The notes beneath the pieces are model-generated. The model was not told the origin of the DNA. It searched no databases and saw only the letters and a list, made by a program, of their open reading frames with translations. Below are positions 2,025 to 31,195 of a stretch of DNA of 31,438 nucleotides, piece by piece. How positions within the stretch are numbered: position 1 is the stretch's first letter; each line of letters begins with the position of its first letter. Origin of the DNA: a virus; IMG/VR virus record IMGVR_UViG_3300025120_000300, positions 1 through 31,438 of that record; one strand, written 5' to 3'. A program made the translations under genes and the position numbers.

Positions 2025-3563
2025 ATGACATATATTGTTCAAGGACTACCTTATACTACTTACAACGCTCCTAGAAGGCAATCAATACCTACTGATGAAG
2101 CTAGAAGGAGAATAGCTACCAAGCTAATTGATACATTCAAAGGCAATCAAACAGCTTATTTGGAGGCTTTAATTAGAGATAGATACAGCGAGCCTACTTT
2201 TGCACATTTAAGGTCAAAATATTTAGCACCTTTGCCCATTTTAACAAAGCTAATCAAAAATATATCTAAAATCTACGACAGAACGCCTATCAGAAAATTT
2301 TTTATTGATGGTAAAGAAGTTGTTAGAGAATTAGATGACTTGATGGATTCTAGCAAATATGTTGATAATCCTGCCTTGTTAGACATTTTAGAGAAAAGAT
2401 TTTACAGCAATAAAAATGCCATAGCATTAAAAATGGCGGAGGAATATACAAACCTTTTAGGCGATACTGTTTGGAAAATTCAAACCGATGAGGAAGGTTG
2501 TTTAAAATTGGTATTTTTGCCAAATGATACCGTTGGGGCTTACAGTTTCCAAAGAAAAAACGCTGATTATCAAAACTCATCACAAGACCCTACCATTGCA
2601 GATGTGATTCACGTTTACGAAGATGAAGAAAGTAAAGATGATATATTTTACATAGAACCAACGCCAATAGAAAAATGGACTGTTAGTAACAAAAAAGTAA
2701 ACGATAATGAATCTGATAATGAAGCAAGCGAACAAGCTAGAGGATACTTCAATTTAGAAAAAGGTTATATTGGCTCTGCTTTTGCTCCATTCGTAGTATT
2801 TAGAAGTGAAGCACATTTTGGTTCATTTTGGAATTTTAAAAATACTGATACCTTACATTTTGTTGATGAGTTAAATTTAAAAATATCGCACAAAAACTAC
2901 TTAACACAAACTGATACAGATAATACGAAAGTATTGATTGATGGAAAAATAGAAGGAAACGCTTTTTCTGATCCATCTGTTATAAATACAATAAAATCAA
3001 CTACCGCAAAAAGAACTGACCCTAAACCTGAAAATCAAGCCAAACTTCAAGAGTTAAAAACAGCAGATTTAAAGAAGTTAGATGAGTCAATTATGCAAGA
3101 TATGAAAACCTTGTTTAAAATGTATGATTTACCATTTGACAGTTTATTGGCCACTAAGAATGTAATGAGTGCTGAAAATAAACAAGTAGAAAATGAGGCT
3201 TTATTTGCTTACATTAATTCTCAAATGGACATTTGGGCAGAAAACGAACAAAACCTATTCAAGACAATGATTGCAGTTTATAATAGGGATAATCAAGAGT
3301 TGCCAAAAAGTTTAACGCTAATGGTTAATTTTGAAAAAAGAGATGTGCAGAAAAAACTAGCTGAAGATTGGTTAGTTGAAATTCAAAATGGAGTATCTAA
3401 TATTTGTCAATGGATTATGGCAGAAAATCCCGATTTATCAAAAGATGAGGCTCAAAAGCTATATGAAAGCAATATAGCCACCAATGATAAAGAAACAAAT
3501 AATCTCTTTGAAGATGAAGAGGAAAACAAAAATATAGAAGAAAATGACCAAGAAAGACCCTAG
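2025..3563 (+). CDS. Portal protein
   Basis: The portal forms the dodecameric ring at the capsid vertex through which DNA is pumped, and it contacts terminase and the connectors. Support comes from position directly after the terminase, a length of 512 aa, and a composition typical of SPP1-like portals. An N-terminal segment has paired helices and aromatic residues, followed by a long mixed alpha/beta body. The C-terminal region (about 330-512) is strongly helical and charged and ends in a run of E, D, K and N. There is no single diagnostic motif, so the call rests on context and overall resemblance. The 3' end overlaps the next gene by 20 bases. No Shine-Dalgarno is visible before the ATG. 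Confidence 0.85.
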   Translation: MTYIVQGLPYTTYNAPRRQSIPTDEARRRIATKLIDTFKGNQTAYLEALIRDRYSEPTFAHLRSKYLAPLPILTKLIKNISKIYDRTPIRKFFIDGKEVVRELDDLMDSSKYVDNPALLDILEKRFYSNKNAIALKMAEEYTNLLGDTVWKIQTDEEGCLKLVFLPNDTVGAYSFQRKNADYQNSSQDPTIADVIHVYEDEESKDDIFYIEPTPIEKWTVSNKKVNDNESDNEASEQARGYFNLEKGYIGSAFAPFVVFRSEAHFGSFWNFKNTDTLHFVDELNLKISHKNYLTQTDTDNTKVLIDGKIEGNAFSDPSVINTIKSTTAKRTDPKPENQAKLQELKTADLKKLDESIMQDMKTLFKMYDLPFDSLLATKNVMSAENKQVENEALFAYINSQMDIWAENEQNLFKTMIAVYNRDNQELPKSLTLMVNFEKRDVQKKLAEDWLVEIQNGVSNICQWIMAENPDLSKDEAQKLYESNIATNDKETNNLFEDEEENKNIEENDQERP

Positions 3564-3825
3564 ATTATCAAGAACAGGAGTTAGTGGTTATAATAAACCT
3601 AAAAGAACGCCTAACCACCCTAAAAAAAGCCATGTTGTAGTTGCTAAGGAAGGTGATAAGATAAAAACTATCAGATTCGGACAGCAAGGAGTTAGTGGTG
3701 CAGGAGCTAATCCTAAGACAAAAAGCGAAAAGGCAAGGCAAAAGAGTTTCAAGGCTAGACACGCAGAGAATATCAAGAAAGGAAAGATGAGTGCTGCTTA
3801 TTGGGCGAATAAAGAAAAATGGTAA
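3544..3825 (+). CDS. Small basic conserved phage protein
   Basis: This 93-aa protein is very basic and rich in K, R, S and G. Three blocks recall a small conserved protein often seen beside portal or terminase genes in AT-rich and marine phages: KTIRFGQQG at 41-49, KSFKARHAENIKKGK in the middle, and MSAAYWANKEKW at the C-terminus. Its function is not established. The positive charge and position suggest nucleic-acid binding or an internal virion protein, which is inference. It overlaps the portal gene by 20 bases. Its TAA shares one base with the ATG of the following methyltransferase, so translation is probably coupled. Confidence 0.75.
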   Translation: MTKKDPRLSRTGVSGYNKPKRTPNHPKKSHVVVAKEGDKIKTIRFGQQGVSGAGANPKTKSEKARQKSFKARHAENIKKGKMSAAYWANKEKW

Positions 3826-5159
3826 TGAAAATAAAAGATTTAATTCTAAAAACTGAAAAAGTTAATTGGCAGGATTTAAAGGATTTGCAACCAGTCAATC
3901 TTAAAAACAATTATCATAGTGATAAAACTAAAAATAGCATTATTAAAAATGGATTCGCAAGGGCAATTTATGTATGGCAAGACAAGAAAGGCGATATATA
4001 TACTGTTGACGGACACCTAAGAGCCGATATATTGCGAGAATTAAAGAATGATGGTTATGATATACCAAATGAATTAAACTGCACCTTTCTTGACCTCCCT
4101 AATAAAAAAACTGCTATAAAATATCTACTACAAGTTTTTAATCAAAAAACTAACCCCATCAATCAAGAAAGTATGGAAATATGGCTTGATGATAATGAGA
4201 TTGTGCTTGAAGATACGGAGGTAGAGCTTGATGAGTTGCATATTGAATTAAATGATGAGGTAGAAGTTGAAGAAGAGCAAGAGGAAGTTAAAGAAGATGA
4301 AGTGCCAGAAGTAAAGCATAGCTTTGTTGTAAAAGGGGATTTGTTTGAATTGATAGATGAAGAGCAGGGGTTAAATCATAGGGTATTGTGTGGGGATTCA
4401 ACTATGATTGATGATGTTGAAAAGGTTATGAATGGGGAAAAGGCTGATTTAATGATTACAGATTTACCTTATGGAGTAAGTTATGCTGATAAAAACAATT
4501 TTCTTAACAATTTAGGCAAAGGTAATAAAATCCAAAAAGAAATAAAAAACGATCATATTGCACCAAATGAATTATATCATTTTGCAAAAAATATATATAT
4601 TCCAGCCTATTCAATAATGAATAAAAAAAATAGTTATTATGCTTTTATGCCTCAAGGTGGGGAACAGATGATGATGATGATGGCTTTAAAAGATAGTGGC
4701 TTTCAAGTTAAGCACGAATTAATATGGCTTAAAAACAATCATGTATTAGGAAGAGCTGATTATTGTTATAAGCACGAGCCTATATGTTATGGTTGGACTG
4801 ATAAAGGAACTCATGAATTTTATTCAAAAGATTTTAAAGTTAGCGTCTTGGAGTTTGATAAGACTGTTTCTAATGATTTGCACCCTACTATGAAGCCTAT
4901 ATCAATCTTGATGGAGCTTATAGCAAATAGCTCTAAACAGAAATTTATCATTTATGATCCTACCTTAGGCTCAGGTTCAACCCTCATTGCCTGCCAACAA
5001 ACTAAAAGAAAATGCTATGGTATAGAACTTGATGAGCATTATTGTGGAGTTGTAATAACTAGATGGAAAAACTATATGGAGAAAGAGGGTAAAAAATACT
5101 CAATCAAAAGAAACGGCGAACAATTTACTTTAACCAATGGAACCAGCAATATTATTTAG
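3825..5159 (+). CDS. ParB-like nuclease domain fused to DNA methyltransferase
   Basis: This is a two-domain protein. Residues about 10-115 form a ParB/sulfiredoxin-like domain with the signature VDGHLRADIL (61-70). A very acidic linker at about 120-163 follows. Residues about 165-444 form an N4-cytosine/N6-adenine methyltransferase: catalytic motif IV DLPYG at 213-217 comes before the SAM-binding motif I DPTLGSGST near 378, the order of the beta class. Such fusions are common in phages and are thought to modify phage DNA, perhaps against host restriction. Motif IV has L in place of the usual P (DLPYG for DPPYG). I choose the ATG at 3825, which overlaps the upstream TAA; an in-frame ATG at 3819 is the alternative. 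Confidence 0.92.
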   Translation: MKIKDLILKTEKVNWQDLKDLQPVNLKNNYHSDKTKNSIIKNGFARAIYVWQDKKGDIYTVDGHLRADILRELKNDGYDIPNELNCTFLDLPNKKTAIKYLLQVFNQKTNPINQESMEIWLDDNEIVLEDTEVELDELHIELNDEVEVEEEQEEVKEDEVPEVKHSFVVKGDLFELIDEEQGLNHRVLCGDSTMIDDVEKVMNGEKADLMITDLPYGVSYADKNNFLNNLGKGNKIQKEIKNDHIAPNELYHFAKNIYIPAYSIMNKKNSYYAFMPQGGEQMMMMMALKDSGFQVKHELIWLKNNHVLGRADYCYKHEPICYGWTDKGTHEFYSKDFKVSVLEFDKTVSNDLHPTMKPISILMELIANSSKQKFIIYDPTLGSGSTLIACQQTKRKCYGIELDEHYCGVVITRWKNYMEKEGKKYSIKRNGEQFTLTNGTSNII

Positions 5160-5511: not shown

Positions 5512-6093
5512 ATGGACGATAAAGTAATCGATAAAGTAATATGTTTGTACAGTAAAGGATTGTCAATGAGAAGTATTGCTTTGGAGTTTGGAACTAATCA
5601 CAAGTTAATATCAAGAATACTAAAAGGTAAAAATATTCAAACGAGAAAACCTAAAAATTTAAGAGGCAAGAAAAAGTTTGAGTGCGATAATGAAAGAATT
5701 TACAATAATATGGCTACTCACTTGAGATTTGATGTTGATTATAGGTGGTTAATGCAGTTCAAGGACTTCAAAAAACTTCAGCTACTAAATGATGTGATAA
5801 CAAATAGAAATGGAAGATGGGCAGTTGATACAGAGTGGTACAAAGGATATATAGTTAGATTTTACAGCGATAAGCAATTTAACGGTATATACCACAAATG
5901 GTGTCTAAGTGGATATGAAAAATACAAAAAACCATCAATAGACCACATAGTACCAACATCAAAAGGCGGGACTAACGATTTAAACAACTTGCAGTTTTTA
6001 TCTTGGTTTGAAAATAGATGTAAGAGTAATATGACTCAAGATGAGTGGAATACATTAAAATCAAACATAAAGGAGTATTTTACAAATGAATAA
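5512..6093 (+). CDS. HNH homing endonuclease with N-terminal HTH
   Basis: This 193-aa protein has a resolvase-type helix-turn-helix at about residues 5-40 (YSKGLSMRSIALEFGT...). A C-terminal HNH nuclease fold follows: D144-H145 in IDHIVPTSKGGTNDLNNL, N159, and N168 in FENRCKSNM. There are no zinc-binding CxxC pairs. Free-standing phage HNH enzymes of this kind cut a specific site in related phages and spread themselves with flanking DNA. The gene sits between two copies of a methyltransferase 5' end, has its own promoter, and overlaps the second copy's ATG (6086) by 8 bases. The HTH could set target specificity or act as a regulator. Confidence 0.92.
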   Translation: MDDKVIDKVICLYSKGLSMRSIALEFGTNHKLISRILKGKNIQTRKPKNLRGKKKFECDNERIYNNMATHLRFDVDYRWLMQFKDFKKLQLLNDVITNRNGRWAVDTEWYKGYIVRFYSDKQFNGIYHKWCLSGYEKYKKPSIDHIVPTSKGGTNDLNNLQFLSWFENRCKSNMTQDEWNTLKSNIKEYFTNE

Positions 6094-6292: not shown

Positions 6293-6889
6293 ATGTGGCT
6301 AAGGTTAAATAAACTTATTAAACCTAATGGGGCAATAGTTTTATTTGGTAGTGAGCCTTTTAATAGTGCTTTAAGAATGAGTAATATTAAGAATTATAAG
6401 TATGATTGGATTTGGGATAAAAGATTTGGTGCTAATTTCGGAACAGCAAAAATACAACCAATGAAAAGACACGAAATTATAAGTGTGTTTGGAGAAAAGA
6501 AATCCCCTTTATACTATCCACAAATGATAAAAAGAGATACACCGATAAAAATAGGTAAGAACAGTTCAAATAAAAGCGACAGAGGTATGCTTACAAAAAA
6601 TGCTCTAAACAATCCAAATTATGACAATAAAGTATATGATGAAAAGTATCCAGAAAGCATACAGTTGTTTAATATTAGGGATGAGAAAAATAGAGTTCAT
6701 CCAACACAAAAACCAGTTGCATTAATGGAATATCTAATCAAGACCTACACAAATGAAAATGAAACAGTGTTAGACTTCACAATGGGAAGTGGAACTACTA
6801 TGTTAGCTTGTAAAAATACCAATAGAAAAGGTATAGGAATAGAACTTGATAAAAACTACTTTGAAATAGCAGAAAAAAGATGTCTTTAA
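6293..6889 (+). CDS. DNA methyltransferase, C-terminal part (N4/N6, beta class)
   Basis: The 198-aa ORF begins at the first ATG after the TAG at 6242, in the same frame as the 5' segment at 6086. It holds the middle and C-terminal blocks of a DNA methyltransferase: KPNGAIVLFGSEPFN (motif V region), VHPTQKPVALMEYLI, and the SAM-binding motif I LDFTMGSGTT with the following GIGIELDKNYFEIAEKR. It lacks the catalytic DPPY motif, so on its own it should be inactive. Activity would need TAG readthrough or assembly with the separately made N-terminal piece. It overlaps the next gene by 10 bases. I regard it as the 3' part of a broken gene. Confidence 0.88.
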   Translation: MWLRLNKLIKPNGAIVLFGSEPFNSALRMSNIKNYKYDWIWDKRFGANFGTAKIQPMKRHEIISVFGEKKSPLYYPQMIKRDTPIKIGKNSSNKSDRGMLTKNALNNPNYDNKVYDEKYPESIQLFNIRDEKNRVHPTQKPVALMEYLIKTYTNENETVLDFTMGSGTTMLACKNTNRKGIGIELDKNYFEIAEKRCL

Positions 6890-19469: not shown

Positions 19470-19500
19470 ATGGAAAAAACAGGATTTTTTAATAACTCTA
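19470..19500 (+). repeat. 31-bp direct repeat shared by the two fiber genes (copy 1)
   Basis: Bases 19470-19500 are identical to 21949-21979. Both begin at the ATG of an S74 fiber and encode MEKTGFFNNS plus the start of the next codon. Sequences before and after differ. Recombination between the copies would remove 2479 bases and leave a single fiber gene. Confidence 0.9.
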
Positions 19501-21677
19501 GACAAGTTTTAAAAACTATAGAAGGTCAAACTCTGGAGGGGTTAGGAGATATTGACATCACAAAGGCAGATGTAGATTTATCTAATGTTGATAACACGAG
19601 CGATGCTGATAAACCAGTTTCAACAGCTCAACAGACTGCTTTAGATTTAAAAATTGATAAAGTTTCAAGCCCAACTAACAATGATGTAGCAAAAATAAAC
19701 TCCGATGGAGAAATTGAAAATAGCGGTATTCAACTAAGCAATATTGAATTAAATACCAATAAAGCTACTTCTTTTCAAAACACACCAAATGACAACAAGT
19801 ATCCTAGTGAAAAACTAGTAAAAGATAGCCTCGATTCAAAAGAGAATAGCTCAAATAAAGTAGCTTCTTTTCAAAACACACCAAATGACAACAAGTATCC
19901 TAGTGAAAAACTTGTTAAAGATAATTTAGATTTAAAATCTAACATTGATGATATTAAAGACAATTTAACGTCAAATAACGTAGATAAACCTTTATCAGCT
20001 AATCAAGGAAAAGTGTTGCAAAATGGCAAAGCTAATAAAATTACTGGAGGAACTGATGGTAATATAACTACTAGAGATGCTAACGGAGATATTCAAGATT
20101 CTGGAAATTCTATTGCAGACGTTAAAAATAGGACAAATCACACAGGAACTCAAGCAATAAGCACAGTAAGTGGTTTACAAACCGAATTGGATGCTAAAGC
20201 CGCAAGAGACACAGATGCGGTAACAAATAATGTTGTTATTTTTGATTCTAACGGAAACCCAGTAGATGGAGGGACGAATTTAGCTGATCTCAATGATGGG
20301 TGGGATGGAGAAGTAAATACTTTTGCTGTTTTACCTTCTGCAAGCTCTAATAATGGTAAAAAATATATTGTTAAAACTCCTACAGGAACAATTATTTTAG
20401 GGACGAAAAAATATGCAGGCACATATATTTCTGATGGAACAAATTGGAATATATTCGGATATAAACAGTCTAGTGTTATTAACCAATTACTAACAGGCTT
20501 TACTGCTCACGCTTCTGTTGTAGCTATTAGTTCTACCGATTCTATACTTGCTGGTTTTCAGAAATCACAAAAATATTTTAATGATTATTTAAGTAATTTT
20601 AATGGGGCAAATCAACTTACTAAACTTGATTCTTCGGGCAAAGTTCCATCATTAATCTATAATGAGATTGAAGCTAGTAATAAAATAAATTTAAATGATA
20701 ACCAAATTAACCTCAGAGGTACGACAAACAATAACAATAACGATCATTACATTAAATTTGTTGAATTTACTGTGGGTGGTGCTAATGGCGTAGAAATAAG
20801 GGGTCATTCGGGCGTTAAAATAGTCAATCAGCTAGAAGTGACAGATAAAATAAATTTAAATGATAACAAAATTAATTTCAGAGGTACGACAAATAATAAT
20901 GACAACAATCATTACATTAAATTTAATTCCTCAAATGATGGTATTCAAATTAAATCTAACGACACAACCTTAATTTCTGATTTTTGCAAATTTGAAGGAA
21001 ATAAATCACTGACTAAAAATTTTGGATATTTTAACTCTAGTGCAAATACAGGCACGGCTACTAATTATACAGGAAATTACAGTGCTGAATTTTCGCAAAG
21101 AATTTTAGCAGATGAGTTTAACGCTACCTCTGATGCGAGAATCAAAAATATTATATCTATTTCAGATGGTAAAAAAGATTTAGAAATTTTAGAAAAAATA
21201 GAAATCTGTGATTTTACTTATAAAGATAAAATTGCAAAAGGCAGTAGAATAAGAAAAAAAGTAATTGCTCAACAGGTGGAGAAAGTTTTCCCTCAATCAG
21301 TTTCAGAAGTTGAAAGCGTTATTCCTTCTGTATTCAAGGAATACGAAGTTGCAGAAAATAAAATTTTTATCGATACAGCAAGTTTTAATTTAAAAGTAAA
21401 TTCAAAATTACAAGTAATAACAGAAAACGAAAACGAAACGCAAAATCATAAAATAACAATTAAGGAAGTTAAAAGTAATTTTATTGTTGTTGATAAGTCA
21501 TTTGAAAAAAAGCGGATTTTCGTTTATGGAGAATTTGTTAAGGATTTTAAAGTTGTAGATTATGAGGAAATTGCTATGTTAGCGGTTTCTGTAATTCAGG
21601 AGCAGTCTAAGACTATAGAAAGAATTTCTAGGGATTTAGAGAAGCTTTCTCAAAATATAAAAAAGTTAAAACCTTAA
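19470..21677 (+). CDS. Tail fiber 1 with C-terminal S74 intramolecular chaperone
   Basis: A 735-aa trimeric fiber. Residues 1-10 (MEKTGFFNNS) match the second fiber exactly and are likely the virion anchor. Next come collar-type segments (DVDLSNVDNTSDADKP), a tandem 32-residue repeat, and 'RGTTNNN..HYIKF' beta repeats separated by 55 residues. The C-terminal S74 self-cleaving chaperone begins near 550 with TSDARIKNI (Ser and Lys of the dyad) and contains KVIAQQVEKVFPQSVSEV. After it come a beta domain, DYEEIAMLAVSVIQEQ, and a final coiled coil. In this family the chaperone trims itself off after trimerisation. The absence of a Shine-Dalgarno is typical of this operon. Confidence 0.9.
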   Translation: MEKTGFFNNSRQVLKTIEGQTLEGLGDIDITKADVDLSNVDNTSDADKPVSTAQQTALDLKIDKVSSPTNNDVAKINSDGEIENSGIQLSNIELNTNKATSFQNTPNDNKYPSEKLVKDSLDSKENSSNKVASFQNTPNDNKYPSEKLVKDNLDLKSNIDDIKDNLTSNNVDKPLSANQGKVLQNGKANKITGGTDGNITTRDANGDIQDSGNSIADVKNRTNHTGTQAISTVSGLQTELDAKAARDTDAVTNNVVIFDSNGNPVDGGTNLADLNDGWDGEVNTFAVLPSASSNNGKKYIVKTPTGTIILGTKKYAGTYISDGTNWNIFGYKQSSVINQLLTGFTAHASVVAISSTDSILAGFQKSQKYFNDYLSNFNGANQLTKLDSSGKVPSLIYNEIEASNKINLNDNQINLRGTTNNNNNDHYIKFVEFTVGGANGVEIRGHSGVKIVNQLEVTDKINLNDNKINFRGTTNNNDNNHYIKFNSSNDGIQIKSNDTTLISDFCKFEGNKSLTKNFGYFNSSANTGTATNYTGNYSAEFSQRILADEFNATSDARIKNIISISDGKKDLEILEKIEICDFTYKDKIAKGSRIRKKVIAQQVEKVFPQSVSEVESVIPSVFKEYEVAENKIFIDTASFNLKVNSKLQVITENENETQNHKITIKEVKSNFIVVDKSFEKKRIFVYGEFVKDFKVVDYEEIAMLAVSVIQEQSKTIERISRDLEKLSQNIKKLKP
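19768..19912 (+). repeat. Tandem 96-bp repeat inside fiber 1
   Basis: Forty-nine bases at 19768-19816 recur exactly at 19864-19912, a period of 96 bases or 32 codons. The encoded unit contains SFQNTPNDNKYPSEKLVKD twice. The units differ slightly after the identical core, so the repeat preserves frame and likely builds a repeated shaft module. It could expand or contract by slippage. Confidence 0.9.
20680..20925 (+). repeat. Imperfect 165-bp spaced repeat inside fiber 1
   Basis: Bases 20680-20760 and 20845-20925 are near-identical, with an offset of 165 bases (55 codons). They encode INLNDNQINLRGTTNN... and INLNDNKINFRGTTNN..., each leading to HYIKF. This is a beta-helix-like fiber module. 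Fiber 2 has weaker versions of the same motif (FRGSNGSDTNHFIKY). Confidence 0.8.
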
Positions 21678-21948: not shown

Positions 21949-21979
21949 ATGGAAAAAACAGGATTTTTTAATAACTCTA
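21949..21979 (+). repeat. 31-bp direct repeat shared by the two fiber genes (copy 2)
   Basis: This copy is identical to 19470-19500 and is placed exactly at the start codon of fiber 2. See the first copy for its possible effect. Confidence 0.9.
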
Positions 21980-23592
21980 AAATAACTCAAATTTTAGATG
22001 GTTTTCAAAATTTTAGCGCAGGAGAAATTACAACAACAACTGTCGAATTAACTAGAAATGATAATGGTGGTTACTTTGGAAACATTTTTGGCAATATAGA
22101 TACTATTTTAATTCTAAAAAAGGACGACCCAAAAACACACATTTATAAAGCAGGCAGTATTTTAACGACTGCCTCAAATCAAGTAAGGATTATAGCTAAA
22201 AATGGCAACACTCTTACTTTATCAGCAGTACCAAAGAATAATGTTGAGATTAGAATATGGTATAAATATTCAGCTTCAAATATTCCATTAAATTATTTTC
22301 CTTTGCCTTTTTCCCTATCAGCAAAGGCGATACAAAGCTATACTACGCAATGGCTAGCTCTAGCTAGCTCTTCAAGTCCCACGACATTGACCCAATCTTT
22401 ATCGATGAATGATTTTCCCATGTACTTCAGGGGTTCTAATGGAAGCGATACAAACCACTTTATAAAATATAATAACTTTATTGATGGAGTAGAAATTAAG
22501 GGTTATGCAGGAATACTATTGTCAGGTAGTAGCGGAGTTGAGTTTGGAGGAAATATAAAACTAAATAATAAAAAAATAGAATTTACCAATACCATATTTG
22601 GAACTAGCAGTAATTATTATATGGGTTTTTTTTCTAATCCAAACAGGTTAGAAATTAAGGCATACAGTGACATAATTAGATTAAAGAACAGCACGGAGGT
22701 TGAAGGAAATCTAACTGCTTCTGGCACTGTTTCTGGCAATTTTTCTGGTAGTCTTTCGCTAAATTCAAACAAATTATATTTAAGAAGCTCAAATAATAAT
22801 GTTGATTATATTGAATATAGCAACAATAAAACCAATTTTTCGAGCAATTCAGAATTTAATTTTAATAAATTTATTGAAATTGCAGGGTCAAAGACTATAA
22901 CCGCCACTTCGGCAGGTGGAGCATATGATTTTGATTACTCTCAAGAAGAGGGCTATTCAGATCAAGAAAGCTATTCTTTAACAGCCTCATACTCCTTAAA
23001 AACTTCTGAAAGAGTTTTGGTAAAGGGAGTAACAATTACTTCTGACAAAAGGTTAAAAGAAAATATTGAAATATCTTCAAAACAAGAAAACTTAAAAGTA
23101 TTAGAAAAAATAAAAATAAGTGATTATAATTTAATAGGAAATAGCAATAAAGAAAAAAAAATTATTGCTCAAGACTTAGAAAAAGTCTTTCCCCAAGCTG
23201 TGTCAAAAATAGTAGATTTTATACCTAATATTAATAAACACGTTTTTATTAAAAATCTTGGAAAAGATAGTATAGAAATTGATTTAAATAATCATAATTT
23301 AGTTTCTGGGGATGAATTAAGATTTAAAATCTTTAAAAGAAACAATCAATATATTGACCAACAAAGTATTGATTTATTTGTCAAGAAAGTTGAAAAAGAG
23401 AAAATTTTTCTTGAATATTCTGATAATTGCAATTTGCAAGTTGGACAAAAAATTTACCTTTTTGGAAAAAAAGTCCAAGATGTAAGAATGATTGATTATC
23501 AAGAAGTTTTTTGCTTGAATGTTTCGGCAACTCAAGAACTACTAGAGCGAGTTAGAAAACTTGAAGATATTATTTTAAATTTAATAAAATGA
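21949..23592 (+). CDS. Tail fiber 2 with C-terminal S74 intramolecular chaperone
   Basis: A 547-aa paralogue of fiber 1. The first ten residues are the same (MEKTGFFNNS) and so are the first 31 bases. The middle is unrelated until repeats of the FRGSNG...HFIKY type. The S74 domain begins near residue 363 with TSDKRLKENIEIS (Ser/Lys dyad) and contains KIIAQDLEKVFPQAVSKI, followed by a beta domain and a terminal coiled coil with LNVSATQELLERVRKLED. Two fibers with one anchor and different shafts suggest two receptor specificities, or alternative fibers on the same tail. The end overlaps the next gene by 4 bases. Confidence 0.9.
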   Translation: MEKTGFFNNSKITQILDGFQNFSAGEITTTTVELTRNDNGGYFGNIFGNIDTILILKKDDPKTHIYKAGSILTTASNQVRIIAKNGNTLTLSAVPKNNVEIRIWYKYSASNIPLNYFPLPFSLSAKAIQSYTTQWLALASSSSPTTLTQSLSMNDFPMYFRGSNGSDTNHFIKYNNFIDGVEIKGYAGILLSGSSGVEFGGNIKLNNKKIEFTNTIFGTSSNYYMGFFSNPNRLEIKAYSDIIRLKNSTEVEGNLTASGTVSGNFSGSLSLNSNKLYLRSSNNNVDYIEYSNNKTNFSSNSEFNFNKFIEIAGSKTITATSAGGAYDFDYSQEEGYSDQESYSLTASYSLKTSERVLVKGVTITSDKRLKENIEISSKQENLKVLEKIKISDYNLIGNSNKEKKIIAQDLEKVFPQAVSKIVDFIPNINKHVFIKNLGKDSIEIDLNNHNLVSGDELRFKIFKRNNQYIDQQSIDLFVKKVEKEKIFLEYSDNCNLQVGQKIYLFGKKVQDVRMIDYQEVFCLNVSATQELLERVRKLEDIILNLIK

Positions 23593-24242
23593 TAAAAACG
23601 AATCAAGAAGATATTGAAAAATTAAAAAAAATAATTCCACAAGAACATTTGATCCTTTGTACCTCAAATTATAAAGGATTTAGAAATTTTTTAGGCTTTA
23701 TTGCTCAATATATTGTAAATGCGATTCAATGGTTTACAGGGGCTTTCTACGACAATTTGACAAAATATATTGCTCACGTTTTTCTTATTTTTTATAAAGA
23801 CGGAGAGCTTTATGTTGGAGAAATGGATAAAAAAACTGGATGGAGGATTATCCCTATAACAGAATCAAATACTTTTATAAAAATTACTAAAGGTCAAATT
23901 AGAATTTTTGATTTAGGGGCAATAAAAGATGAGGAAATTAAGCATTTTTGCCAATATGGAGAAAAGCAAAAATATTCTCTGCTAGAAGCTATAGCATCTT
24001 TAAAGTTATTTAGATTTTTAAATCTATTTATTTCATATAAAAAAAGGTTTAAAAGCAATAAATGTCATTGCGGTTCAATTTTTTTTAAATATCAACCCTT
24101 TCATAAATTTTTAAAAATAACTGGTAAAACTTTTTATAGAAAATATAAAACGAATCATCCAGAGGCAGTAGATCATTATTTAGTGGATAATTTTGATCTA
24201 AAAATTGTTGAAATTAAAAAGGAAAAAATAAGATGGAGTTAA
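23589..24242 (+). CDS. Candidate permuted NlpC/P60-like cysteine hydrolase
   Basis: The 217-aa protein has a layout that recalls YiiX/YaeF-type circularly permuted NlpC/P60 papain-fold enzymes. A strand with a histidine (H63 in IAHVFLIFYKDG) and an acidic residue (E78 in YVGEMDKKTGW) come first. A helical region 127-150 follows, then a cysteine strand KCHCGSIFF (C161 the likely nucleophile). Such enzymes cleave peptide or amide bonds in cell walls or lipids. Position after the fibers and before the small membrane proteins and spanins suggests an endolysin or envelope-entry hydrolase. No endolysin of a standard family is found elsewhere in the window. There is no signal peptide. The family call is by eye. 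Confidence 0.45.
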   Translation: MIKTNQEDIEKLKKIIPQEHLILCTSNYKGFRNFLGFIAQYIVNAIQWFTGAFYDNLTKYIAHVFLIFYKDGELYVGEMDKKTGWRIIPITESNTFIKITKGQIRIFDLGAIKDEEIKHFCQYGEKQKYSLLEAIASLKLFRFLNLFISYKKRFKSNKCHCGSIFFKYQPFHKFLKITGKTFYRKYKTNHPEAVDHYLVDNFDLKIVEIKKEKIRWS

Positions 24243-25329: not shown

Positions 25330-25571
25330 TAAATCATAAAACAGATGAATTTTTAAGAGATTCTTTTGGCAATAAATCATCTAAAAGAATATGGGGTAGT
25401 ATTATTATTGGGCTTGGTGCTGTTGCAGGTATTTGCTTATTTATAATGTCTGTCTTTTTTGGAGGCACAGGAGATCCAGCAACAGCAATTTCAATTATTA
25501 ATAGCTTTCTGCTTTTTGGCGGCTCTCTTTTAGGTATTGGAGTAATAGAAAAATTTGCTATAAAAAAATGA
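25326..25571 (+). CDS. Holin candidate, two membrane helices, 81 aa
   Basis: A charged N-terminus with DSFGNKSSKRIWG is followed by a glycine-rich hydrophobic helix (SIIIGLGAVAGICLFIMSVFF), a short loop GGTGDPATA, and a second helix (FLLFGGSLLGIGVIEKF) with a short basic end. Small two-helix proteins with this organisation lie immediately upstream of spanin genes in many phages and are called holin-like. Holins open the inner membrane to release endolysin and trigger spanin action. The start overlaps the preceding stop (ATGA) and the end overlaps the i-spanin start by 4 bases. Confidence 0.6.
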   Translation: MINHKTDEFLRDSFGNKSSKRIWGSIIIGLGAVAGICLFIMSVFFGGTGDPATAISIINSFLLFGGSLLGIGVIEKFAIKK

Positions 25572-25768
25572 AAAATTTAATTTATAAAATATTGGGGGGA
25601 TTAGTGGTTTTATTTACTTTTTTTCGATTAGGAAAGATAAGTGGAAAGAATGATTTAAAAAATGAAATTAATAAAAAAACTTTAGAAGATGTTAAAAAAG
25701 CTAAAACTATTGATGAAGAAGTTGATAATATGTCTAACTCTGATCTTGACGACCTCTTGCGTAAATAA
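25568..25768 (+). CDS. Inner-membrane spanin candidate (i-spanin, Rz-like), 66 aa
   Basis: One N-terminal membrane helix (about residues 4-22) leads into a charged helical periplasmic part, KTLEDVKKAKTIDEEVDNMSNSDLDDLLRK. The NMSNSDLDDLLRK ending resembles the D-N-L-S-D-D-L pattern at the end of many small phage i-spanins. The o-spanin reading frame starts within it in the +1 frame, the classic nested spanin architecture. The pair bridges inner and outer membranes and fuses them at lysis. It is short for an i-spanin, fitting a compact lysis cassette. Confidence 0.7.
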   Translation: MKNLIYKILGGLVVLFTFFRLGKISGKNDLKNEINKKTLEDVKKAKTIDEEVDNMSNSDLDDLLRK

Positions 25769-25898
25769 ATATAGTGAAGCGTTTTGCTTGGAGTATGCTA
25801 TAATCAAATTTAATCAAAATGAACTTGATAATTTGTTAATAGATTCCAAAAGGAAAGTGGCTAAGAATAATCGTAAGTTTAAGGAGATGTGTAAATAA
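25713..25898 (+). CDS. Outer-membrane lipoprotein spanin (o-spanin, Rz1-like), 61 aa
   Basis: I take the ATG at 25713 (an earlier in-frame one is at 25689). It encodes MKKLIICLTLILTTSC, a lipoprotein signal with a cysteine at residue 16. The mature part has CVNKYSEAFCLEYAIIKF and ends IDSKRKVAKNNRKFKEMCK. The spacing from the lipobox cysteine to the C-terminal N-N-x-x-x-x-x-x-C is the pattern of a common phage o-spanin lipoprotein. The lipobox TTSC has a weak -3 residue. It overlaps the i-spanin by 56 bases in +1 frame. Its presence supports a Gram-negative host. Confidence 0.7.
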   Translation: MKKLIICLTLILTTSCVNKYSEAFCLEYAIIKFNQNELDNLLIDSKRKVAKNNRKFKEMCK

Positions 25899-26018: not shown

Positions 26019-26501
26019 TCAAGCAATAGTTATCCGACCTATCACTTCATTTTGATCTGCCCTCCTAGTTTGTTTATTCTCCTCATCATTTAATAAAAAA
26101 TCATTTACAAACCAGTTGCAAGTATCTAGGCTTTCATTTATTATGATATCCTGACTTCCATATTCAAAATTCTCATCAAAGTTTTGACCCATTAACGGAC
26201 AACCTATAGTGTTTCTTAGATAACTTCCTGCGTGTATTTCTATGTTAAATCGCTTTGGAACATTCAAGATTTTAACCCATTGATGTTTTCCTGTAAAATC
26301 TGCTCCCAAAAAGTATTCTCCCATAGGTATTGCTACCTCTTGCCTTTCCAAGATATAAACAGGATTACCCATTCTCGATAATAATTCTAAGGGAGACTTA
26401 GATAAATTTATTTCTTTGTTTATTTGATATACTTTCGAACAATAAAAGCCTTGCCCCTCCTTAGTGCGTCTTAAAATCCTTTTGATATATATATCTTTCA
26501 T
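26019..26501 (-). CDS. DUF5675-family phage protein, 160 aa
   Basis: The family signature is visible: N-terminal GQGFYCSKVYQ, then VAIPMGEYFLG, HQWVKILNVPKRFNIEIHAG, and NTIGCPLMGQ. H90 and C101 in the IHAG...IGC pair resemble the His/Cys placement of L,D-transpeptidase-like enzymes, so an envelope-modifying or wall-degrading activity is possible but unproven. It is the last gene of the - strand operon, reading toward the lysis genes from the other side. Its position in the opposite operon is unusual if it is a lysin. It has no signal peptide. Confidence 0.75.
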   Translation of the reverse strand: MKDIYIKRILRRTKEGQGFYCSKVYQINKEINLSKSPLELLSRMGNPVYILERQEVAIPMGEYFLGADFTGKHQWVKILNVPKRFNIEIHAGSYLRNTIGCPLMGQNFDENFEYGSQDIIINESLDTCNWFVNDFLLNDEENKQTRRADQNEVIGRITIA

Positions 26502-26823: not shown

Positions 26824-27270
26824 TTAAATACGTCTTAAAATTTCATTTAATACTTTTTTAAAAACTTGATAATCATCTATAATATAGACATCAAAACCGC
26901 ATTTTGATATTTTTTTATGTGCTAATTTTTGATTGTCTGATATTCTTCCTGTTCTCATTCGTTTAAATTCAACAAAAAAACAATGACCTTCTATTAAAAG
27001 CATAGTATCTGGAAAGCCTGCAACTAAACCCATCTTTGTGTGCCTTTGATTGTTCTCATTACCAATCATTACAAACATTCCATCCCTACTATAAGCTAGC
27101 ATATTAGCCTCAAAGATAGCTTTACATTTCTTTTGTAAATCTTTTTCTTTAAAACTTCTTTCGGCTTGTCGGATCGTCTCTAACTGTTCTGTTGATAAGC
27201 AACCACCTGTATTATAAAGATTGTTAATCTCTTTTAAAACACTTTTATCAGTTTGTTTGTGATGAATCAT
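26824..27270 (-). CDS. VRR-NUC domain nuclease
   Basis: The VRR-NUC fold of PD-(D/E)xK nucleases is recognised by AGFPDTMLL (P87-D88), FVEFKRMRTGRIS (E101, K103) and DNQKLAHKKISKCGFDVYII (Q114). The N-terminal 40 residues are an extra helical extension. Phage VRR-NUC proteins act on branched or flap DNA and may resolve recombination intermediates, here together with the Sak/YqaJ system in the same operon. It is 148 aa, typical of stand-alone phage versions. Confidence 0.9.
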   Translation of the reverse strand: MIHHKQTDKSVLKEINNLYNTGGCLSTEQLETIRQAERSFKEKDLQKKCKAIFEANMLAYSRDGMFVMIGNENNQRHTKMGLVAGFPDTMLLIEGHCFFVEFKRMRTGRISDNQKLAHKKISKCGFDVYIIDDYQVFKKVLNEILRRI

Positions 27271-27273
27271 ATT

Positions 27274-27804
27274 TTAAAATTTAAACGCATAACTAAAATT
27301 AATTGCTCTCTTTAAATCAAAATCCTCATTCTTAAAAATATAGGTAGCAGTCAAGACACCCCCATTAAGAAGAATTTTACCAATAGATAATCCATAAAGC
27401 AACTCACTTTCTTTATTGTTGCCAATTTTTGTATTATTTAGATACAAATTAGATTTTTTTCTAGCATTTATAACATTACCACCAACTAGATATTTATTAA
27501 ACCTTCTAAAAAGCCCCACAGAGTCCGTAGTAAGCCTTGTTTTAGTTTTTATAGCTACTTGGTTATCTTTTCTTATTAAATAGCCCTCAGCCCTTAAAAA
27601 TTGGCTAGTTAGTCTGTTTGTTGATACTCCAACAAAATATTTTTTAGAAATGGGTTGATAATAGTTTAGATTTAACGATAAACCATTTTCTATTTTTTGT
27701 GTTTTATAATCTTTATAATCTTGAGTAAAGACTGTATTAGAAACCCCAATAAAAGCGTTTGCTGTTAATGGTAGCAGTAAAAATGTTATTATTTTTTTAA
27801 TCAT
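27274..27804 (-). CDS. Putative outer-membrane beta-barrel protein with signal peptide
   Basis: The 176-aa protein starts MIKKIITFLLLPLTANA, a clear Sec signal peptide with an ANA cleavage site (after residue 17). The rest alternates polar and hydrophobic residues in amphipathic strands, with short turns rich in N, K and D, and ends NFSYAFKF, a C-terminal aromatic beta-signal. These are hallmarks of a small outer-membrane barrel. No soluble enzyme motif is seen. Prophage-encoded outer-membrane proteins (such as lambda Lom) are known, and some exclude other phages. The setting inside the DNA-metabolism operon is unexpected. It overlaps the upstream gene by 8 bases. Confidence 0.65.
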   Translation of the reverse strand: MIKKIITFLLLPLTANAFIGVSNTVFTQDYKDYKTQKIENGLSLNLNYYQPISKKYFVGVSTNRLTSQFLRAEGYLIRKDNQVAIKTKTRLTTDSVGLFRRFNKYLVGGNVINARKKSNLYLNNTKIGNNKESELLYGLSIGKILLNGGVLTATYIFKNEDFDLKRAINFSYAFKF

Positions 27805-28075
27805 TGTTAGTATTTGTAGGGCTTATCAATTTATATTTTTTTTGACTCGTGCCAATTAATTTATTTTTATAAAATAGCTTTCTTATTACATTAATTAATT
27901 TTTCTTTCTCATAAAGATCAATTCTAAAGTTAAAGTCTCTAGGTTTTTCTTGTTCAATATTCTTTTTTAATGCCACATCTCCAATAAAATCTAAACTATC
28001 TTTATTGATTTTTAACGCTAAAGATTTCCCATATCTTTTTTGATTTTCTTGGTGGCTATGATGGTATTTATTCAC
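27797..28075 (-). CDS. Hypothetical protein, 92 aa
   Basis: I choose the GTG at 28075 because AAGGGAGAAAGG lies just before it and it overlaps the stop of the upstream 51-aa gene; a GTG at 28090 is the alternative. The protein is charged, with NKYHHSHQENQKRYGKSLAL at the N-terminus and ISPTNTNND at the end. It is probably a cytoplasmic helix-rich protein. No family is recognised. Because the 8-base overlap links it to the barrel gene, the two may be co-translated. Confidence 0.55.
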   Translation of the reverse strand: MNKYHHSHQENQKRYGKSLALKINKDSLDFIGDVALKKNIEQEKPRDFNFRIDLYEKEKLINVIRKLFYKNKLIGTSQKKYKLISPTNTNND

Positions 28076-28223
28076 CCTTTCTCCCTTCACTTTTTACTGG
28101 ATTCTTAATTTCTTCCAAATCATGCTCTAAAGATTGCATATTCATTTTAAAATCTATTCCCAATAATTCTCTTTCACAAGCTACCTCAAAAGCTTTTCTT
28201 ATTTTTTCCTCATTCTCTTTCAT
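28068..28223 (-). CDS. Small hypothetical protein, 51 aa
   Basis: The ORF encodes a charged, mainly helical peptide: MKENEEKIRKAFEVACEREL at the N-terminus and NPVKSEGRKGE at the end. Its start lies three bases after the SSB stop and its end overlaps the next gene. This fills an otherwise empty gap in a tight operon, so it is likely real. It has no domain I can name. Confidence 0.6.
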   Translation of the reverse strand: MKENEEKIRKAFEVACERELLGIDFKMNMQSLEHDLEEIKNPVKSEGRKGE

Positions 28224-28225
28224 GG

Positions 28226-28606
28226 TTATTTTTTAATTAAATTAGCTTCTTTATCTTCTTTTTCAACTCTATCTAATATTAGTAAACTAGAGTTAAAATT
28301 TTGCAAAACAATTTCTGTTATGTATTTATCAATTCCGTTGTTATCAGTCCATTTCCTAGTTTGTAGTTGACCTTCGATATATAGCTTACTACCCTTTTTA
28401 ACATAGTTTTTAACCACATTTACTAAGCCTTGATTAAAAACTACGATATTGTGCCACTCTGTTTTTTCTTTTCTTTCACCAGTGTTTTTGTCTTTCCAAC
28501 GCTCCGTAGTTGCAAGAGAAATATTGGCAATCTCTCTGCCATCTGGAGTTTGCCTAATATCTGGACTTTTCCCAAGATTTCCAATTAAGGTGACTTTATT
28601 TAGCAT
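28226..28606 (-). CDS. ssb: Single-stranded DNA-binding protein
   Basis: The OB-fold is clear: MLNKVTLIGNLGKSPDIR at the start, then REIANISLATTERW, EKTEWHNIVVFNQGLVNVVKNYVKKGSKLYIEGQLQTRKWTD. I choose the start at MLNKV (28606) because it matches the family; upstream ATG/GTG codons would add 16 unrelated residues. At 126 aa it is short. After the OB domain it ends KEANLIKK, lacking the acidic DDIPF-type tail that host SSBs use to bind partners. It likely protects phage ssDNA and assists the annealing protein. Confidence 0.92.
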   Translation of the reverse strand: MLNKVTLIGNLGKSPDIRQTPDGREIANISLATTERWKDKNTGERKEKTEWHNIVVFNQGLVNVVKNYVKKGSKLYIEGQLQTRKWTDNNGIDKYITEIVLQNFNSSLLILDRVEKEDKEANLIKK

Positions 28607-29877: not shown

Positions 29878-30489
29878 TTATTTATGTTTTTTTAACTCTT
29901 CTACCCAATAATCCAAGACTACTTTTGCTTTTTCAATTTCCTCTTCGTTGCGATTATATCTATATACAATTAGTCTATCATCATCTTCAAAGTCTTCGTT
30001 ATAACTAATGCAATCGCACCATTTAATATTTGGCTTAGTTATCATTGGCAATAGTATTTGACCTTTGTATTTCTTTAACCACTCATCAAAACCAAAGACT
30101 TTACAATACATATGTTTTTTCTGACATTGTGTTTTTATTTCCATCATGCCATCTTCTCCCACTAATCCATCTGGAGAAAATCCATAATAACCACAACCAG
30201 ATTCAATAAAGCCAACTTCTTTGACTTCTGTTAGATATGTTTGTTGATATAGGCTTCTTGCTCTAGGCTCGCATTCTGTACCCCTTGCCATTGCAAAGGT
30301 TTGGAAATCATCAGAATTTTGAGTGCAAATTGCATTGCCAATAATTTCACACATTGCTTCTTTTGCTGTAATACTTTTAGCAATAGAAAGAGTTGGAGTA
30401 ATTAAACTTCCAAATTTACTAGCTGTAATTTTGCCCTTTCTTATTTCTTCCCATTCCTTAGAATTTTGATCAAAATTAAATGTTTTCAT
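29878..30489 (-). CDS. YqaJ-type phage exonuclease (lambda Exo-like)
   Basis: This PD-(D/E)xK exonuclease processes DNA ends to make 3' single strands for annealing. Visible motifs: WEEIRKGKITASKFG (13-27), ARGTECEPRARSLY (68-81), the metal-binding SPDGLVGEDGMMEIK (D107, E117, K119), and a C-terminal basic helix. At 203 aa it is typical. It lies next to the annealing protein gene with a 14-base overlap, which is the classic exonuclease/annealing pair of phage recombination (Red-like). Confidence 0.95.
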   Translation of the reverse strand: MKTFNFDQNSKEWEEIRKGKITASKFGSLITPTLSIAKSITAKEAMCEIIGNAICTQNSDDFQTFAMARGTECEPRARSLYQQTYLTEVKEVGFIESGCGYYGFSPDGLVGEDGMMEIKTQCQKKHMYCKVFGFDEWLKKYKGQILLPMITKPNIKWCDCISYNEDFEDDDRLIVYRYNRNEEEIEKAKVVLDYWVEELKKHK

Positions 30490-31195
30490 TTTCTTGATTG
30501 TTTTTTTGTTGAGCTTGTTTTTTTGCCTCCAATGATTCCTTCATTCTTTTAAATAAAGATACAGGTTCAATCGGAAGTTCTGCAATTTGATTAATTTTGT
30601 ATATTCTACACAGAGCCTCCTCATCGCTTTCTGTCTCTTCTATTAACTTTTGCAATTCTTCTTTTTGCTTAGAAGTAATGTAAATAGTGTTTATTTCTTG
30701 CCTTTCTTCGATAGAATAAATATCATCTTTCGCCCACAAAGACAAGCCAAATCCAAAAAGTGCTAAATTCTTTACTAAGCAACGCATTATAGCTTTATTA
30801 ATTGCTTGAATATCTATTGCTTCAACTTTTTTCTTAAATGGTTGACTAGGGTTTTGTTTATTTTTTACTTCATAAATATATGGTTGTTTTTTTAAAACCC
30901 TATTTGAATTATCAAGAACTGGCAACATTATTTCTTTTTCTTGATCTTCAATTTTTACTTTTGTTTTTACCCAATACCCTACAACATCATCATAAAAAAA
31001 GGGCTTACCCTCTTCATTTTCTAAAATTTTATAAGAAAACCCTTTAGGGTATTTTTTACTAACTTCTGCTACTGCATCAGCCCAAGAAACGTATTTATAA
31101 CTATTTTTTGTTTGTATTTTTTTTGAAACGTCAATTAAGCTCAAATTGTTAAATATGCTTTTTTTTGTTTTTAGCTTGTCTGATTCTCTGCTCAT
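30476..31195 (-). CDS. Sak/DUF1071-type single-strand annealing protein
   Basis: Support: YVSWADAVAEVSKKYPKGFSY at 35-55 (the family's Y-x-S-W-A-x-A), followed by DVVGYWVKTKV. A middle segment covers KKVEAIDIQAINKAIMRCLVKNLALFGFGLSLW (about 122-154), and the remainder is helical. This core is typical of Sak-like/Rad52-related annealing proteins that pair complementary single strands. A 14-base overlap with YqaJ supports a working pair. The 239-aa length fits the family. The C-terminus is rich in K, E, Q and N, as in other Sak proteins that bind SSB or nuclease. Confidence 0.8.
   Translation of the reverse strand: MSRESDKLKTKKSIFNNLSLIDVSKKIQTKNSYKYVSWADAVAEVSKKYPKGFSYKILENEEGKPFFYDDVVGYWVKTKVKIEDQEKEIMLPVLDNSNRVLKKQPYIYEVKNKQNPSQPFKKKVEAIDIQAINKAIMRCLVKNLALFGFGLSLWAKDDIYSIEERQEINTIYITSKQKEELQKLIEETESDEEALCRIYKINQIAELPIEPVSLFKRMKESLEAKKQAQQKNNQENENI

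Follow-up and report, generated by a model that had tools for sequence, protein, structure and literature searches.

The window, i.e., the whole analysed stretch of 31,438 nucleotides (IMG/VR record IMGVR_UViG_3300025120_000300), contains on its minus strand an open reading frame of 176 codons with an ATG at 27804 and a stop at 27274, which is predicted to encode a small outer-membrane barrel protein. The frame is located in a tightly packed minus-strand run of genes extending from about 31195 to 26019. The run begins with genes for a Sak annealing protein and a YqaJ exonuclease, followed by three small genes and a 109-base gap; after the gap come a small gene, the SSB gene, two small genes, and the barrel gene, and past the barrel gene lie a VRR-NUC-like nuclease gene, a small gene, and a DUF5675 gene. 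The features of the locus are as follows:

30476-31195, minus strand: gene for a Sak-type single-strand annealing protein (profile search)
29878-30489, minus strand: gene for a YqaJ-type exonuclease (profile search)
28226-28606, minus strand: SSB gene, same operon as the barrel gene (Pfam SSB, 6e-37)
27797-28090, minus strand: upstream partner gene, 97 aa as listed, no family assigned (L002 homologue 69% identical)
27797-27829, minus strand: barrel leader, 25 nt upstream plus the 8-nt overlap ATGATTAA (sequence comparison; kept in L002)
27274-27804, minus strand: gene for the predicted outer-membrane barrel protein, stop included (176-aa ORF, 87% identical L002 homologue, dN/dS, AF2)
27754-27804, minus strand: signal peptide, residues 1-17, MIKKIITFLLLPLTANA (sequence and alignments; AxA site of SPase I type)
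27277-27312, minus strand: last strand with the terminal beta-signal-like NFSYAFKF (alignment; predicted strand 167-173)
26824-27270, minus strand: gene for a VRR-NUC-like nuclease, directly downstream of the barrel gene (PHROG 824/93; Pfam VRR_NUC sub-threshold)
26019-26501, minus strand: DUF5675 gene, the last of the operon (Pfam; near the barrel gene also in L002 and L092)
25568-25768 and 25689-25898, plus strand: Rz/Rz1-like spanin genes, overlapping in different frames (PHROG matches)

The start of the barrel gene and the end of the upstream gene share 8 nt, which contain the barrel ATG and the upstream stop, and the VRR-NUC gene begins 3 nt past the barrel stop. An earlier reading of the window, made from its sequence alone (the sequence-only reading), had placed the gene in one operon with SSB, VRR-NUC, and recombination genes; this agrees with the tight packing, which takes in the YqaJ and Sak genes as well. 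The promoter scan gave 33 matches compared with 31.7 in shuffles, i.e., no excess, so membership of one early operon is inferred from the gene packing and the functions of the neighbours only. For the 97-aa upstream gene, a GTG start at 28075 is likelier.

A second copy of the gene was found in another phage contig, L002 (IMGVR_UViG_3300030090_006274). It is 87% identical and occupies the same place, with a homologue of the 97-aa gene before it and genes for a VRR-NUC-type nuclease and DUF5675 after it. The pair has a dN of 0.068 and a dS of 0.424 (dN/dS about 0.16), and the barrel gene is, on these values, under purifying selection. The amino acid changes between the two copies are not concentrated in the outer loops, and there is thus no sign of an arms race there. 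Judging from the L002 copy and the distant full-length relatives described below, the reading frame is not a chance one. The other genes shared by the window and L002 are 69-76% identical and more diverged than the barrel gene; their dS values reach 1.15 (SSB), 1.36 (DUF5675), 0.81 (a gene for a 217-aa protein), and 0.46 (the 97-aa gene). The bootstrap dS ranges were 0.30-0.61 for the barrel gene, 0.70 or more for SSB, 0.83 or more for DUF5675, and 0.58-1.20 for the 217-aa gene. From these values, exchange of the barrel gene, perhaps together with the 97-aa gene, may be more recent than that of the other shared genes. The upstream gene and barrel leader, compared between 27797-28090 of the window and 1625-2309 of L002, show modular exchange: the L002 barrel gene is immediately preceded by a 112-aa gene of different origin, yet the final bases before the barrel ATG, the 8-base overlap included, are nearly unchanged.

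The barrel protein starts with MIKKIITFLLLPLTANA, followed by FIG after the expected cut. The sequence reads as a short n-region with basic residues, then a hydrophobic core and a cleavage site of AxA type; cleavage is expected after ANA17, leaving 159 mature residues of about 18 kDa. The same make-up was read in every family member, and the AxA-type ends are kept in the alignments of the relatives, which bears out the clear signal peptide of the sequence-only reading. Cysteine is absent from the whole window protein and from the mature part of its relatives, and histidine is absent from the mature protein in the window and in four of the five relatives. The protein ends with NFSYAFKF. The terminal phenylalanine that had been taken as a mark of an outer-membrane protein is present in the window and L002 (FKF) and in L089 (YAF), but it is not kept across the family, the last residues being FYI in one clade (L105, L095, and L108); thus, two clades out of three end in an aromatic residue.

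No sequence relative of the window protein was detected in Pfam, PHROGs, NCBIfam, PADLOC, PDB, or 50,697 annotated phage records, just as the sequence-only reading had recognised no family. In Pfam, the window protein had no match at E values up to 1 and the five relatives none at E values up to 10. The scan of genome contigs with the window protein alone returned nothing; profile searches did reach relatives. A two-sequence profile gave a weak match (E 0.0018) in genome G255, which belongs to the order of Candidatus Arcanobacter lacustris. This match is a full-length frame with a signal peptide, adjoining DUF5675 and thermonuclease genes, and is 99% identical to a gene of L092, a free phage contig of 44 kb. 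With a three-sequence profile, two full-length relatives were found in genome G287 (E 1.2e-12 and 2.2e-11), both on contigs carrying phage early genes such as those for a dUTPase or a recombination-type ATPase, named by reading the frames by eye. A further phage contig, L108, has a copy 87% identical to the G287 relatives. The other clades share 21-28% identity with the window protein, and the profiles of two clades alone align with an E value of 1.3e-5 over 165 columns (hhalign). The columns kept in all members include TNR (62-64), D94, L98, K104, N113, L135, and G138. The barrel family is previously unlisted and, on these profile comparisons, recurs in at least six phage sequences; it may be filed as a new sequence family of a known kind, the phage-encoded small outer-membrane barrels. 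The profile matches L090, L096-L104, and L110-L122, in other genomes, were not counted, being weak and, where examined, short or in unrelated frames (e.g., L113). A 186-aa frame with a signal-peptide-like start was also observed in an alphaproteobacterial genome of 0.8 Mb (L124, 1501-2058, minus strand); it has a weak profile match (E 0.0012, positions 3-61) and may be a chromosomal surface barrel.

The gene is placed in the early operon in five of the six phage sequences, a placement similar to that in the window recurring in L002, L107, L106, and L108. In the sixth, the L092/L089 phage, it ends a plus-strand lysis unit, coming after spanin-like genes, DUF5675, and a thermonuclease gene. The sequence-only reading that the protein is made early is therefore consistent with most of the placements, but early expression does not hold for the family as a whole. 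The gene is found close to where the lysis and early units meet in the window, L002, L092, and L108. The genes directly before the barrel gene in L107 (5611-5985), L106 (3595-3792), and L108 (about 3237-3635) encode proteins that end with DEIPF, DEMPPF, or EDNIPF and resemble the acidic tip of SSB; the L107 copy, which was tested, had no Pfam or PHROG match. In three of the phages, DUF5675 is encoded close to the barrel gene, and the DUF5675 protein of L092 (5035-5538) has a weak match to a Tlde1 domain (E 0.0019, below the cut-off).

The fold was predicted using AF2, in line with the barrel prediction that the sequence-only reading had proposed as a check. Because the single window sequence gave a pLDDT of 39.7, only the model built on the seven-sequence family alignment was used. 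It reached a pLDDT of 69 and a pTM of 0.58 and consists of long antiparallel hairpins resembling an outer-membrane barrel, with strands at residues 30-40, 44-51, 56-66, 70-78, 83-102, 105-122, 125-144, 150-156, and 167-173. Residues 1-27, comprising the signal peptide and the first strand, are below pLDDT 50, and a closed eight-strand barrel is therefore not fully resolved. In the VIA-align comparison, the 13 best chains were all outer-membrane barrels (Z 8.9-11.3), mainly of the small OmpA/OmpX/Ail type: Ail (Z 11.3, rmsd 3.3, 130 residues aligned), OmpA (Z 11.0, rmsd 3.3, 133 aligned), OmpX (Z 10.8, rmsd 3.1, 130 aligned), NspA (Z 9.7), and CarO (Z 9.5), together with a Thermus outer-membrane protein and a Legionella porin. 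Below them came a heme-binding protein (8.7) and soluble barrels (7.3 and lower). Foldseek against PDB found the same kind of fold with a best E value of only 0.065, and its best viral match was an uncultured Caudovirales phage protein that bears the name "Outer membrane protein beta-barrel" (E 2e-5). Eight strand segments were recognised in the alignment by eye; the turns at about 51-55, 101-104, and 145-149 are short, and the remaining connections are longer. The amphipathic strands of the sequence-only reading were reproduced in part: the alternating-hydropathy score reached p = 0.01-0.04 in three of the five relatives, whereas that of the window sequence alone did not differ from shuffles (p = 0.31). 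According to the family-alignment model and the fold comparison, the window protein is very probably an outer-membrane barrel, as had been proposed, and the predicted barrel is most likely eight-stranded.

Among the known systems, the Ail/OmpX/PagC/Lom proteins (Pfam Ail_Lom) are similar in being small secreted outer-membrane barrels of comparable size (about 18 kDa for the window protein, 15-18 kDa for the Ail_Lom/OmpX proteins) with eight strand segments, counted here in the alignment; the first strand is not resolved in the model. In contrast to them, the window protein has no match to the sequence models of the family in Pfam and NCBIfam. Lambda Lom, which the sequence-only reading had named as a precedent, is likewise phage-encoded and would work in the same place, but its match to the barrel family profile has a probability of 0.2% (hhalign), its reported role is adhesion (PMC4198210, PMC3430580), and the barrel gene lies in an early recombination operon rather than a tail-fibre region, with no integrase, repressor, or other lysogeny gene found. 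By this comparison, Lom is a precedent for the fold only. The OmpA transmembrane domain and NspA share the small-barrel topology, whereas the identity is 5-13% and the window protein is phage-borne and has no periplasmic OmpA domain. Llp of T5 and Cor of phi80 and N15 are phage-made envelope proteins with the same proposed purpose (PMC9586334, PMC11436027); unlike the predicted barrel, with its SPase-I-type site, no mature cysteine, and no lipobox, they are small lipoproteins. Two BFVD entries from uncultured Caudovirales phages (A0A6J5LNL8 and A0A6J5LN35) are phage-encoded, 185-187 aa long, and match in predicted fold (E 2e-5 and 2e-4), with 18-19% identity over the structural alignment; they were compared by predicted structure alone.

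The best matches of the phage SSB (69-77%) are SSBs from Rickettsiales and from alphaproteobacterial genomes that are less closely named. Among 344 genomes from the order of Ca. Arcanobacter lacustris, which we take to be Rickettsiales, 2 had members of the barrel family; none of 385 genomes spread over the class did. From these matches, the phage probably infects Rickettsiales-like bacteria; the contigs are short and may have been misassigned in binning. The five phage records, one of which is 44 kb long, were searched for a tyrosine integrase, a serine recombinase, and an above-threshold HTH_3 repressor, and none was detected; the same searches were positive in 14, 11, and 14 of 14 control genomes, respectively. 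The records may be incomplete, so the phages may nevertheless be capable of lysogeny. Scans with the terminase, capsid, Sak, and 217-aa proteins returned no close phage relatives; one of these scans missed L002, although L002 has the gene in question, and empty scans of this kind therefore mean little.

Several other genes of the window, all on the plus strand, were also observed. The 217-aa protein (23589-24242) is 73% identical in L002 and has no family found; its conserved His and Cys residues (HVF, KCHCGS) suggest a cysteine-peptidase-like protein. The products of two successive tail-fibre-like genes (19470-21677 and 21949-23592) resemble each other at the C-terminus; a Peptidase_S74 chaperone domain was matched in the first, and the second looks similar by eye. 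Among the head genes are those for a DNA methyltransferase with an extra N-terminal part (3819-5159) and an HNH endonuclease (5512-6093), as well as a second methyltransferase-like frame (6293-6889).

From general knowledge of such proteins, the barrel protein would be exported by Sec, cleaved after ANA17, and inserted in the outer membrane by the host BAM complex, with the short turns facing the periplasm and the long hairpins (around residues 66-83 and 113-131) exposed outside. Once displayed on the infected cell, it might mask, bind, or compete with a host outer-membrane receptor and so make it harder for further phages to adsorb or to deliver their DNA, and the infected cell would not be lost to rival phages. 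This exclusion of superinfecting phages is the best of the readings considered, but a tentative one; the full chain, i.e., a small exported outer-membrane barrel that excludes further phages, is proposed with the same caution. Exclusion is favoured because early production of exclusion proteins is common among lytic phages, with T5 Llp, which acts on FhuA, as an example (PMC9586334). The recombination and SSB neighbours and the similar placement in L002, L107, L106, and L108 point to an early surface role, and the lack of detected lysogeny genes suits a role during infection. Against exclusion, early timing is not conserved in the L092/L089 phage, and the described exclusion proteins Llp and Cor are lipoproteins or receptor inactivators rather than barrels. 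Catalysis of the PagL, PagP, or OmpT kind is unlikely, since the mature protein has no His or Cys.

The protein might instead serve the fitness of an infected or lysogenic bacterium by giving it a new surface, e.g., for adhering to or surviving in a eukaryotic host cell. Two of the closest solved folds, Ail and OmpX, belong to a family with functions in adhesion and serum resistance (PMC4198210), Lom affects adhesion (PMC3430580), and the likely hosts live in eukaryotic cells, their placement resting on the largely Rickettsiales-type nearest SSBs and the 2/344 versus 0/385 distribution of relatives. However, function does not follow from similarity of fold, the family profile gives no match to Lom itself, and bins of short contigs may be wrong; with no integrase, serine recombinase, or above-threshold repressor in the five phage records, this lysogenic-conversion role is considered rather unlikely. 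Remodelling of the envelope for the infection itself, through outer-membrane permeability or stability, metabolite uptake, or progeny release, would fit the position of the gene at the end of the L092/L089 plus-strand unit with spanin-like genes, DUF5675, and thermonuclease, and near the meeting point of lysis and early units in the four phages named above. The early-operon placement in five of six sequences speaks against it, as does the pore size, since to our knowledge eight-strand barrels have no wide pore. Outer-membrane disruption is already supplied by the Rz/Rz1-like spanins of the window phage, and we regard remodelling as distinctly improbable. A spanin or outer-membrane lysis role for the barrel is disfavoured, the pair at 25568-25898 making it unneeded and the barrel having no PHROG match. 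Spanin-like pairs, similar by eye, were also seen in L002, L092, and L108.

A different secreted beta-rich fold, soluble or periplasmic, which AF2 drew as a barrel, is very improbable. The pLDDT of only 69, the amphipathicity of the window sequence within chance, and the presence of soluble barrels, avidin-like ones among them, further down the fold list would be in keeping with it, but the 13 best matches are all outer-membrane barrels (Z 8.9-11.3 against 7.3 for soluble ones), the window protein ends in a beta-signal-like stretch with an aromatic residue, and the short turns and long loops alternate in the manner of an outer-membrane barrel.

Lom and the other phage-coded outer-membrane barrels whose role is known are encoded by enterobacterial prophages. 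The family described here is, by sequence comparison, a separate and unlisted one in at least six phage sequences, mostly within the recombination operon, and the evidence places its hosts near the Rickettsiales, whose phages are little studied. That phages of intracellular Rickettsiales share unlisted barrels inserted early against rivals as a barrel type of exclusion, different from the known lipoprotein type, or acting at the interface between the bacterium and the eukaryotic cell, is a broader and unlikely proposal. If the barrel excludes other phages, it would be structurally a new type among exclusion proteins; if it alters the contact between the bacterium and the eukaryotic cell, phages would take a direct part in that symbiosis.
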